Positions 60,721-64,000 of a stretch of 64,000 nucleotides of DNA are shown piece after piece. Each line of letters starts with the position of its first letter. Positions within the stretch are counted from its first letter, which is position 1. This DNA comes from a virus. Position numbers and translations under genes: made by a program. The notes beneath the pieces are model-generated. The model saw only the letters and a list, made by a program, of their open reading frames with translations, searched no databases and had not been told where the DNA came from. The stretch covers positions 1 through 64,000 of IMG/VR virus record IMGVR_UViG_3300032223_003183. One strand, given 5' to 3'.

Positions 60721-61209
60721 ATGGCAGTATTAAACCCAAACGAAATAATGTTCACTGCATTTGAACCTAAAGTAGCAAATAGATTCATAATGTACATTGA
60801 AGGAATCCCAGCTTACATGGTTAAAAAAGCTTCAGCTCCAGGATTTGATGCAGGTGAAATCGTACTAGATCACATTAACGTTTACCGTAAAATTAAAGGT
60901 AAAGTAAAATGGAATGATATGACACTAGCATTGTATGATCCAATTGCTCCTGCAGGATCTCAAGCAGTAATGGAATGGATGCGTTTATCTCACGAATCTG
61001 TAACAGGTAGAGATGGATACTCAGATTTCTATAAAAAAGATATTACAATGAACATTCTAGGTCCAGTAGGTGACGTAGTTGGTGAATGGATTATAAAAGG
61101 TGCATTCATTAAATCATCAACATTTGGAGACTATGATTGGTCACAAGGTGAATCAGCAGCTGAAATCGGTATGACTTTAGCAATGGATTATTGCATCTTG
61201 AACTTCTAA
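60721..61209 (+). CDS. gp19: Tail tube protein, gp19-like
   Basis: The 162-residue protein has the T4 gp19 length (163). It shows FEPKVANRFIMYIEGIPAYM, KKASAPGFDAGEIVLDHINV, KVKWNDMTLALYDPIAPAGS and YDWSQGESAAEIGMTLAMDY, all typical of tube proteins that bind the rigid inner tube hexamers. It lies directly after the sheath, as in T4. It is flanked on both sides by terminators, so tube and sheath have separate transcripts. Confidence 0.93.
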   Translation: MAVLNPNEIMFTAFEPKVANRFIMYIEGIPAYMVKKASAPGFDAGEIVLDHINVYRKIKGKVKWNDMTLALYDPIAPAGSQAVMEWMRLSHESVTGRDGYSDFYKKDITMNILGPVGDVVGEWIIKGAFIKSSTFGDYDWSQGESAAEIGMTLAMDYCILNF

Positions 61210-61234
61210 TACAAGTTTAAAAATAATAAAAAAG

Positions 61235-61265
61235 AACCCACCATTTTGGTGGGTTTCTTTATTTT
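61235..61265 (+). terminator. Rho-independent terminator after the tube gene
   Basis: AACCCACC (61235-61242) and GGTGGGTT (61248-61255) form a strong 8-base-pair stem with a 5-base loop, followed by a T-rich run. Confidence 0.85.
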
Positions 61266-61270
61266 TACTA

Positions 61271-61278
61271 TATTTATA
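61271..61278 (+). promoter_or_regulatory. TATTTATA promoter-like motif
   Basis: An exact TATTTATA 20 bases before the gp26-like start at 61299, just after the tube terminator. Confidence 0.55.
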
Positions 61279-61298
61279 TATAAACACAAATAAAATTT

Positions 61299-62045
61299 AT
61301 GGACAATCAAGTTACAAAACCAAAATTTCCTACGGAAATTGTAGAATTACCCTCAAAAGGTTTACTTTACCCAAAAGACAATCCTCTTTCAAGCGGTCAA
61401 ATTGAAATGAAATATATGACAGCTAGAGAAGAAGATATCTTAACTAACTCTAATTATATCCAATCAGGAGTAGTATTAGATAAATTATTGGAATCATTAA
61501 TTGTTTCTAAAATAGATCTAAAAGATATGATAATTGGAGATAAAAATGCTATTTTAATTGCTTCTCGTATTTTAGGATATGGTCAAGATTATGAATTTGA
61601 AGTTAATGGTAAACAATATAAAGTAGATTTAACTACTTTAAAAGATAAAGAATTACCAGAAGATGTAGACTATACTAAAGGTAATGAATTTTACTACACT
61701 TTACCTGCTTCAGGAGTTGAAGTTGGATTTAAAATCTTAACTCATGGTGATGAAGCTGCTGTTGAAGCTGAATTAAAAGGATTAAAAAAATTATATCCAA
61801 ACGGTGGTTTACCTGAAGTCTCAACTCGTTTAAAATATTCCATAATTTCAGTAGGAGGAAATACTGATAGAAAAGTTATTAGAGAATTTATTGATAATGA
61901 ATTATTAGCAAGAGATGCAAGATCATTACGTCAAGAAGTAAAACGTATCGCTCCAGATGTAGATTTAATTACAAAAGATGATGAAGGGGAGGACATCGCT
62001 ATACCCATTAGCCTTAACTTTTTTTGGCCTGACTTCAACCTATAG
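61299..62045 (+). CDS. gp26: Tail assembly chaperone/baseplate hub protein, gp26-like
   Basis: The 248-residue protein has FPTEIVELPSKGLLYPKDNP, QIEMKYMTAREEDILTNSNY and VVLDKLLESLIVSKIDLKDM. I know this block from the gp26-like proteins of T4-like phages. It ends SLNFFWPDFNL. T4 lists gp26 as a hub component, but in many tailed phages the gene pair between the tube and the tape measure encodes the tail chaperones. Its last 68 bases overlap the next gene in another frame, around a TTTTTTT run that may be a frameshift site. Confidence 0.8.
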   Translation: MDNQVTKPKFPTEIVELPSKGLLYPKDNPLSSGQIEMKYMTAREEDILTNSNYIQSGVVLDKLLESLIVSKIDLKDMIIGDKNAILIASRILGYGQDYEFEVNGKQYKVDLTTLKDKELPEDVDYTKGNEFYYTLPASGVEVGFKILTHGDEAAVEAELKGLKKLYPNGGLPEVSTRLKYSIISVGGNTDRKVIREFIDNELLARDARSLRQEVKRIAPDVDLITKDDEGEDIAIPISLNFFWPDFNL

Positions 62046-62298
62046 ATTAAATTTATTTGCCCAAATACATGAGATAGTATTTCATGGTAAGGGGGGATAT
62101 GATTGGAATACTATTTATGAAATGCCTATTTGGCTTAGAATATTTACTTTTAATAAATTAAAAGAATGGTATGATAAAGAACAGGAACAAGCTGATGCCC
62201 AAAACAATCAATTAACTAATAAAAATGCTGCTCAAATAGCTAGACCTAACATACCCCAAGCAAATTCATATAACGCTAAAGTGCCTACTAAAAAGTAG
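61978..62298 (+). CDS. gp51: gp51-like protein, probably made as a frameshift fusion with gp26
   Basis: The frame encodes LNLFAQIHEIVFHGKGGYDW and NTIYEMPIWLRIFTFNKLKE, the conserved core of gp51-like baseplate hub catalysts. The only start I can propose, ATG 61978, would add about 24 residues that are just the out-of-frame reading of gp26 codons, which is suspicious. More likely the ribosome shifts from gp26 at the T7 run at about 62019-62025. A terminator stem covers the stop codon (62296-62298). Functional core is confident; the start is not. Confidence 0.65.
   Translation: MMKGRTSLYPLALTFFGLTSTYRLNLFAQIHEIVFHGKGGYDWNTIYEMPIWLRIFTFNKLKEWYDKEQEQADAQNNQLTNKNAAQIARPNIPQANSYNAKVPTKK
62019..62025 (+). 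other. Candidate programmed frameshift site (TTTTTTT)
   Basis: In the gp26 frame the codons are AAC TTT TTT TGG. A +1 slip of the second Phe tRNA from TTT to TTT, or a -2 slip, keeps full pairing and enters the gp51 frame (GGC CTG). A -1 slip would not reach it. The gp26 stop is only 18 bases farther on, leaving a short window for slipping. Confidence 0.6.
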
Positions 62299-62307
62299 GC
62301 ATTTTTT
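62282..62307 (+). terminator. Rho-independent terminator overlapping the gp51 stop
   Basis: TGCCTACT (62282-62289) pairs with AGTAGGCA (62294-62301) around AAAA and is followed by a run of T. The stem includes the TAG stop of gp51 and separates the chaperone pair from the tape measure transcript. Confidence 0.85.
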
Positions 62308-62317
62308 GTCTCTTACA

Positions 62318-62325
62318 TATTTATA
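62318..62325 (+). promoter_or_regulatory. TATTTATA promoter-like motif
   Basis: An exact TATTTATA 17 bases before the tape measure ATG at 62343, directly after the terminator. Confidence 0.55.
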
Positions 62326-62342
62326 TTATATACTAAGATAAT

Positions 62343-64000
62343 ATGGCAGCCCCAGATCCTAAAGATTTACCAAAATACAGAAAAGACCTAGAAGATATAG
62401 CTAAATATACTGAAGAAGCCTTTCGTACAGTTGCCGATAATGTATCTCAAACCTTTAAAGACGCTTTAGCCCAAGGGCAATCAGTATCCAAATCTTTTGG
62501 AAATGATATAAAAAACAATATGAATTCATTAGCTCGTATAGCTACTGATAATATTGCTAATCAAGAAAAACTTAAAAAAGGTTTATTAACCCAACAAAGT
62601 ATTCAAAAACAAATTGAAACTCGTGAAGCTAAAATTTTAGCTATACAAAATAGTATAGAAGCTTCTAAATTAGCTGGAATAAAAATAAGTAAACAACTTT
62701 TAGAAGATTTAGAAAGATCTAAAGATTTAAATGAAATTTACATAGGTCAATTAAAGCAACAACAAAAATTAGTTAAAGATACTGAAGATTCCGTAAATAA
62801 ACAATTAGGTATATTTCCTAAATTGTTAGGTGGTTTAGATGCTGCTATGAAAAAATTGGGTCTTCCAAACTTTGGATTTGATGATGCCCTAAAGAAAACC
62901 CAAGCTATGGGTCAGGCCGCTAAAGCTAATGGGGAAGAATTTAATGCTACTAAAGCTTATATAGGTAATATTAAAGATAATTTAAAAGAATCTTTTAGTT
63001 CTGCTAATTTACTACAAACTGCTTTTGTAATAGCAGCAAAAACCTTCTTAGATTTAGATGATTCTATAGGTACTACTGCTAAACAATTAGGAGTTTCTTA
63101 TAATACTGCTGCCGGACTAAGTCAAGAATTTAATAATATTGCCAATTCCACAGGAAATATATTTGTTACCACAAAAGGTATAAATGAATCCTTTAACCAA
63201 ATTAATGCTGCTTTAGGTACTAATGGTAAAATTAATAGTGAAATTTTAGTTACCCAAACCGAATTAGTAAAACAAGCAGGTTATAGTGTTGAAGCAGCTA
63301 CAGCTATTTCTAAATTATCATTAGCTACAGGTAAACCTGCTAAAGAAATAACAACTCAATTTTTAGGTCAAGCTAAAGCATTAAATTTAGTTAATGGTAC
63401 TGCTATTAATGAAAAACAATTATTAGAAGAAGTATCTAAAACCTCAAAAGCTATCTTAATCACATTTGCTGATCAACCTGGAGCATTAGCTGCAGCAGCC
63501 TATGAAGTTAAAAAATTAGGTTTATCTTTAGATCAAATAAAAGGAATTCAAGATAGTTTATTAAACGTTGAGTCTTCTATTTCTAATGAATTTGAAGCTG
63601 AAGTATTAACTGGTAAACAATTAAACCTAGAAAGAGCAAGATACTACGCTTTAACTAATAATATTACAGGTTTAGCTAAAGAATTAGGAAACCAAGGTAT
63701 TACTCAGGCTAAATTTGCTGGAATGAACGTTATCCAACAAGAAGCTGTAGCTAAAGCAATGGGTATGTCTAGAGATCAAATGGCTGAAATGTTAATGAAC
63801 CAAACAGCTATTAATAAAATAACTGGGGTTGAAGGAGCTACTGCTAAAGAAAGATATAATAATGCTGTTAAAAAATATGGAGTAGAAAAAGCAAATGCCA
63901 TGTTAGGAGACGAAACATTAGCAAACCAACTCCAATCAGCTTCTATGCAAGATAGATTTAATGCTTCTATTGAAAAATTAAAAGATTTATTTGTAGGTTT
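62343..64000 (+). CDS. Tape measure protein, N-terminal part (cut by window end)
   Basis: An open frame from ATG 62343 runs without a stop to the end of the window and gives at least 552 residues. The protein is almost entirely helical with a Lys/Gln/Leu-rich coiled-coil first 200 residues (LLTQQSIQKQIETREAKILA), then helical repeats with Asn/Ala/Thr content around conserved stretches (AKTFLDLDDSIGTTAKQLGV, AAYEVKKLGLSLDQIKGIQD). This is the composition and position of a tape measure, which sets tail length, directly after the chaperone pair. T4's own gp29 is 590 residues; this one is probably longer. Confidence 0.8.
   Translation, partial: MAAPDPKDLPKYRKDLEDIAKYTEEAFRTVADNVSQTFKDALAQGQSVSKSFGNDIKNNMNSLARIATDNIANQEKLKKGLLTQQSIQKQIETREAKILAIQNSIEASKLAGIKISKQLLEDLERSKDLNEIYIGQLKQQQKLVKDTEDSVNKQLGIFPKLLGGLDAAMKKLGLPNFGFDDALKKTQAMGQAAKANGEEFNATKAYIGNIKDNLKESFSSANLLQTAFVIAAKTFLDLDDSIGTTAKQLGVSYNTAAGLSQEFNNIANSTGNIFVTTKGINESFNQINAALGTNGKINSEILVTQTELVKQAGYSVEAATAISKLSLATGKPAKEITTQFLGQAKALNLVNGTAINEKQLLEEVSKTSKAILITFADQPGALAAAAYEVKKLGLSLDQIKGIQDSLLNVESSISNEFEAEVLTGKQLNLERARYYALTNNITGLAKELGNQGITQAKFAGMNVIQQEAVAKAMGMSRDQMAEMLMNQTAINKITGVEGATAKERYNNAVKKYGVEKANAMLGDETLANQLQSASMQDRFNASIEKLKDLFVG

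Follow-up and report, generated by a model that had tools for sequence, protein, structure and literature searches.

Frameshifting between the G and T genes of tail assembly chaperones is described as widespread in long-tailed phages except T4, in +1, −1 and −2 versions, with a −2 shift in Mu and very likely a +1 shift in HSTV-2 (PMC5009743). According to the same source, CUU_U far exceeded the other +1 sites in efficiency in a context that was tested. For T4, gp26 and gp51 are given as hub assembly chaperones, gp51 being essential and of unknown function (PMC3004832). In some T4-like phages, a short gene together with a fused long gene is said to take the place of a frameshift (PMC10885494, citing Vladimirov et al. 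2022). Poly-T −1 signals are mentioned for T4-like chaperone genes (PMC12846349, citing Vladimirov et al. 2022), and a −1 shift at GTTTTT for Vandenendeviridae and Andersonviridae (PMC12846349). The kind of system analysed here is already known; its +1 form in the T4-like chaperone group is new, and no title or abstract describing that form in this family was found in a literature search that had most subscription journals outside its reach.

The window, i.e., the whole stretch of DNA analysed here, comprises 64 kb out of a 71,893-nt IMG/VR virus record. On its + strand, a gp26-like ORF of 248 aa (61299–62045; phrog_150) and the overlapping gp51 frame lie between a gene for a gp19-like tail tube protein (60721–61209; phrog_4542, E 1.7e-23, and phrog_45) and a tape measure gene that continues past the window end (62343–64000). 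The tube protein shares 67% identity with the syntenic protein of immuto, and the tape measure protein was assigned from its 33% identity, over 305 aa, with the protein annotated as such in Flavobacterium phage immuto. This order, tail tube, gp26–gp51 pair and tape measure, is the position of G/GT-type chaperones. Two terminator-like hairpins on the + strand, one in the gap between the tube gene and gp26 (61234–61256) and the other at the gp51 end (62278–62305), bracket the gp26–gp51 unit; the pattern scan found three such hairpins in all against 0.5 expected. No tRNA genes were found within the window, and a nucleotide search of a phage collection with window positions 61000–64000 gave no match.

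The gp51 frame is +1 relative to gp26. It is open from 61969 to 62298 if no start codon is required, and the ORF counted from its ATG occupies 61978–62298 (106 aa); the −1 frame closes at once at this site. A 68-base overlap of the two ORFs and a TTTTTTT run at about 62019, both reported by the first-pass annotation, proved exact: the overlap is 61978–62045 and the run is a T7 at 62019–62025, read in the gp26 frame as TTT TTT T|GG. The junction in that frame is GAC ATC GCT ATA CCC ATT AGC CTT AAC TTT TTT TGG CCT GAC TTC AAC CTA TAG. Runs of at least seven T number five on the + strand of the window, this one included, compared with 35 runs of at least seven A.

We consider, with a probability of about 0.9, that gp26 and gp51 are one gene with two readings, in which a +1 programmed frameshift would yield tail assembly chaperones of two lengths, one short and one long. 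This interpretation draws on the frame hand-over and constrained slip codon seen in the sequences of relatives, the absence of an independent start in many of them, and the family to which the proteins belong. The majority of ribosomes would translate 61299–62045 into the 248-aa short chaperone (TAC-N). We infer that in a minority, at the slip site TTT TTT TGG (62019–62027), the Phe-tRNA on the P-site TTT (62022–62024) would slip one base forward onto the overlapping TTT while a presumably slow TGG codon (62025–62027) waits in the A site. Reading in the +1 frame to 62298 would then give a 332-aa long chaperone consisting of gp26 residues 1–242 and a 90-aa helical T-like domain (62026–62298, + strand, GLTSTYRLNLFAQIHEIVFHGKGGYDW...). 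Such a fusion would contain the junction sequence IPISLNFFGLTSTYR, the window-type +1 peptide being DDEGEDIAIPISLNFFGLTSTYR. Phage immuto, which is cultured on Flavobacterium sp. LMO8 and has the same layout with TTT CTT TGG at the site, would correspondingly give a tryptic junction peptide ...GVDIPIGVSFLGLTPEYR. If the pair works as lambda gpG/gpGT does, the shorter product would be expected to coat the tape measure protein and the longer one to bring in tube subunits.

Relatives were collected by six scans of the IMG/VR viral_contigs with the window, immuto, Mel-JY01, RM378, SP-15 and LR756508 as queries, at most the 80 best matches being kept per query; the RM378 and SP-15 queries matched only their own genomes there. 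Among the matches listed and the named phages, 267 related loci had a complete gp26. They constitute a sample rather than a census and include duplicates (L067/L101 and L080/L115, with RM378 and SP-15 each present twice). Close relatives remain among the 230 unique junctions; the grouping into 56 clusters at 75% identity corrects for them. One locus ending inside gp26 (L054) was left out of one junction comparison.

With a gp51 domain profile built from the +1 extensions, 257 of the 267 loci listed showed the domain in the +1 frame and five showed it elsewhere, a count that is partly circular since the profile was trained on +1 frames. The five loci with no match comprised one at a contig end (L062), the two RM378 entries (L091 and L255), whose +1 frame is open for 71 aa and too diverged for the model, and two with the −1 frame (L092 and L093). 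Because of this training, more weight is placed on the stop counts, the start-codon survey and the held-out contigs from bacterial and archaeal MAGs; the stop counts and the held-out contigs are free of the circularity. Across the 56 cluster representatives, the 14 codons at positions −16 to −3 contained 32 stops in the +1 frame, which was then free of stops from the slip codons through +15; the gp26 frame showed the opposite, with no stop through codon +2 and frequent ones beginning at +4. All eight usable MAG contigs keep TTT TTT T(GG/TC) CCT with gp51 in the +1 frame, the ninth (L295) ending inside gp26. Four of the nine labels of these MAG hits are Flavobacteriales or Winogradskyella and one is Sphingobacteriales, with other bins differing; together with the immuto host, they point to Bacteroidota as hosts for part of the +1 group. 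The host of Mel-JY01 is Microcystis. Conservation of the T run among relatives had been named by the first-pass annotation as a way of checking its proposal, and the slip site indeed recurs across hundreds of related loci.

The slip codon itself is strongly constrained. In the 230 unique junctions, the codon before TGG was TTT in 193, CTT in 32, CTA in five and TTC in none, compared with 418 TTC among 1749 Phe codons (24%) elsewhere in gp26. The 56 clusters gave TTT 50, CTT 4 and CTA 2, and the chance of finding no TTC among them was ca. 1e-8 with the codon use of each locus and 3e-6 with pooled use. The A-site codon was TGG in 219 of the 230 junctions and TAC in seven, and the base 3′ of the P-site codon was T in 227. 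These data favour a P-site YUU slipping onto UUU by +1, which would fit them, over a −2 shift, which would not. In the five CTA loci, the +1 slip may occur one codon earlier (UUU to UUC), the preceding TTT having C next. No strong downstream stimulatory RNA structure was found (mean z −0.6 to −0.7 against mononucleotide shuffles, 60–90 nt). The 60 nt upstream of the slip site were more stable than other segments but barely more so than their shuffles; thus, the extra stability is mostly a matter of composition.

Other explanations for the second frame differ in how they account for this pattern. If gp51 were a separate gene overlapping gp26 out of frame, translation from the ATG at 61978 (or 61981) would yield the peptide TSLYPLALTFFGLTSTYR. 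An ATG ATG is present at 61978–61983 on the + strand, 150 of the 230 unique junctions, the window included, have a possible ATG, GTG or TTG ahead of the slip site in the +1 frame, and five relatives have a gp51 with its own start. Nevertheless, 80 of the 230 junctions and 15 of the 56 cluster representatives lack such a codon in the open stretch that runs from the last +1 stop to the slip site; many of these have the +1 frame closed within 2–20 nt of the T run, and in 39 of the 230 junctions it opens just 2 nt before the slip site. The upstream +1 frame is also unconserved and interrupted by stops, and conservation starts exactly at the Phe codons, which bears out the earlier observation that the conserved gp51 core begins after the proposed start. 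Moreover, no use of Shine–Dalgarno (SD) sequences was seen in the window (3 of 53 ORFs vs. 9.5% of random windows). The start-codon survey of relatives and the lack of SD use led us to judge that the ATG ATG does not serve as an independent start, and a separate gp51 gene in the window is very unlikely.

The same fusion could also arise from a Mu-like −2 shift, which we regard as less probable again. In the window, the Phe-tRNA on TTT TTT could re-pair two bases back, and the product would carry one extra Phe (NFFFGLT vs. NFFGLT). This re-pairing does not hold throughout the group: the codon preceding the slip codon is TTC in 14 of the 230 loci, and the 13 loci with TTC TTT TGG as well as GXN1 (TTC TTT CGT) would place the Phe-tRNA on UCU, while the T found 3′ of the P-site codon in 227 of the 230 junctions is needed only for +1. 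Of the +1 or −2 shift that the first-pass annotation had proposed, the codon pattern favours +1, and Mu is therefore not the best analogy. Slippage of RNA polymerase on the T run, resulting in mixed mRNAs, would suit the T7 of the window, but 37 of the 230 junctions (CTT or CTA) have at most three T in a row and another 14 have at most four, all with unchanged frames, making transcriptional slippage more improbable still. The least credible reading is that of a decayed or chance frame. Although the 106-aa ORF of the window has no Pfam or PHROGs match, the absence of stops after the slip in the 56 clusters, the conserved residues, the helical AlphaFold2 model of the domain (pLDDT 76) and the homology to T domains of other T4-like phages all speak against it.

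The gp26–gp51 fusion through NFF-GLT, as originally suggested, is supported by the conserved frames, the missing starts, the constraint on the slip codon and the relatives that lack the slip site and have an ATG for gp51. Loci with an own-start gp51 are exceptions that occur at at least three places on the tree (five of the 267 loci listed: L034, L046, L267, L272 and L089). An own start without a slippery run had been put forward as evidence that would count against the fusion; it was found in these few loci, as an exception, with the slip site changed in four of the five (L046, TTC TTC TGG; L267, TTC TTG TAT; L089, TTT TTC TTC; L272, TTC CTT TGG CCA, which keeps CTT T). L034 (TTC TTT TGG CCA) keeps its T4 run. 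The gp51 ATG follows the start of the gp26 stop codon by 5 nt in L267, 8 nt in L272 and 2 nt in L089. In L034 and L046, the two genes are separated by inserts (L034:2867–3578, ca. 700 nt; L046:3739–3936, ca. 200 nt), and the new gp51 N-terminus still reads EFFGIT, the shift point. Inspected by eye, both inserts open with a terminator-like hairpin; the ORF in the L034 insert resembles a GIY-YIG homing endonuclease, and the L046 insert is apparently a remnant. A search of both inserts for a group I intron (Rfam) gave none at the gathering score and nothing convincing at E 1. Judged by their predicted genes, the own-start loci show that the gp51 domain can exist as a protein of its own as well; because they carry it in this free form, the fusion is less surely indispensable.

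A conserved G-rich element, GGGGAGG (61986–61992, + strand), lies 26 nt 5′ of the T run and is a possible frameshift stimulator. SD-like 5-mers were present in ca. 70% of 219 loci in a 12-nt interval starting 36 nt before the P-site codon, compared with 1.4% in other gp26 intervals of this kind. Where this interval encodes Gly-Glu, the Gly codon is GGG in 89 of 112 cases vs. 160 of 2658 elsewhere, i.e., a rare codon is kept. Direct action of GGGGAGG on the slipping ribosome as an internal SD was set aside, since the spacing rule between an SD and the P site places the element too far away. It is also found in L034, L046 and L272, where it either predates the loss of shifting or has another role. 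Separately, a second SD-like element was noted in ca. 36% of the 219 loci, in a 12-nt interval starting 66 nt after the P-site codon; in the window DNA, it corresponds to about 62088–62096.

On the basis of profile matches, the window proteins are members of the family of T4 gp26 and gp51, the tail assembly chaperones. The gp26 ORF matched phrog_150 ('baseplate hub') at E 1.3e-7, the same family that T4 gp26 and gp51 match at E 6.7e-71 and 2.6e-84, respectively. Both T4 proteins also belong to PF12322, which gave no match to the window protein at E 0.1 and scored above the curated cut-off in the relatives SP-15, LIS04, GXN1 and LR756508. The extra C-terminal part of T4 gp51 falls in phrog_634 and aligns opposite the +1 product; 13 of 66 members had a match to phrog_634 at E up to 1, with a best value of 5e-4. 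The profile of the +1 domain also matched that of the −1 T domains found in T4-like phages (prob 91, E 1.1e-6). Comparisons of the profiles with single T4 proteins by hhalign, T4 gp51 included, were not significant and, with one sequence, uninformative; the family link of the +1 domain therefore runs via phrog_634 and the −1 T domains. The AlphaFold2 model of gp26 (pLDDT 93.7) matched predicted structures of T4-like baseplate hub proteins, including that of SP-15, and its best PDB match, a weak one, was the HK97 tail assembly chaperone 2ob9 (Foldseek E 1.3, Z 5.0, rmsd 7.4 over 80 residues). A Foldseek search with the gp51 model gave no significant match.

In LIS04, the second frame has no annotation, and in three other phages an internal piece of it is all that is annotated: 36 aa in immuto, where 80 aa follow the slip, 39 of 72 aa in SP-15, and 58 of 71 aa in RM378. 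A similar picture was noted more widely: the frame is called a short hypothetical protein or hub assembly catalyst with an internal start, or is left unannotated, in immuto (L083), SP-15 (L086), LIS04 (L087), RM378 (L091), KVP40 (L284) and cyanophages (L277–L279). This implies that phage annotations miss or truncate the second frame of the chaperone gene.

Among the closest counterparts are the cyanophages and other T4-like and related myophages with a −1 shift. All 10 named phages inspected by eye had the second domain in the −1 frame (Synechococcus S-RIM2, S-SKS1 and S-CAM3, Aeromonas G2, Vibrio D532, Mendera, Rhizobium I1_9, KVP40, Salmonella SP1 and Acinetobacter SH-Ab 15599), and P-SSM4, PA5oct and Atu_ph07 are further −1 phages. 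They share with the window the same gene, the Phe-Phe position and a homologous T domain, but their shift is mostly at T TTT TTC (9 of all 13 named −1 phages), whereas that of the window group would be +1 at YTT TGG. The named +1 phages are immuto, Mel-JY01, RM378, SP-15, LIS04, GXN1 and LR756508 (TTT CTA). In the tree, all +1 members, together with L089 and the other own-start loci, form one group with weak support (83/51) beside PA5oct and Atu_ph07. The simplest reading of this topology is a single change of shift direction. More tentatively, and with odds that we put clearly below even, one chaperone family might have switched its frameshift between −1 and +1, in whichever order, and yet retained the shift at the same two Phe codons. 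The +1 form would be helped by the conserved G-rich element 20–36 nt upstream, acting behind the ribosome in hosts without SD initiation, and repeated losses to an own ATG and the T4 two-gene encoding would complete the series. The element is a testable candidate +1 stimulator in Bacteroidota-type translation.

Among known +1 sites, that of prfB (RF2) shares the YTT T slip codon, CTT T itself being found in 32 of the 230 loci. The RF2 site has an SD about 3 nt upstream; the window group has no SD at ca. 3 nt and has TGG rather than a stop in the A site. With lambda gpG/gpGT and other G–T chaperones, the likeness consists of overlapping frames between the tube and tape measure genes; the comparison with lambda is by layout alone, the fold match being the weak one to HK97. 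T4 gp26 and gp51 likewise consist of a short protein and a long protein bearing an extra C-terminal domain, but T4 encodes the two forms as separate genes on opposite strands, whereas the window would encode them as one gene with a shift. The T4-like chaperone family, with two genes in T4 and a −1 shift in other members, gains a +1 form. The occurrence of +1, −1, own-start and two-gene encodings within one family allows the evolution of recoding direction to be addressed.
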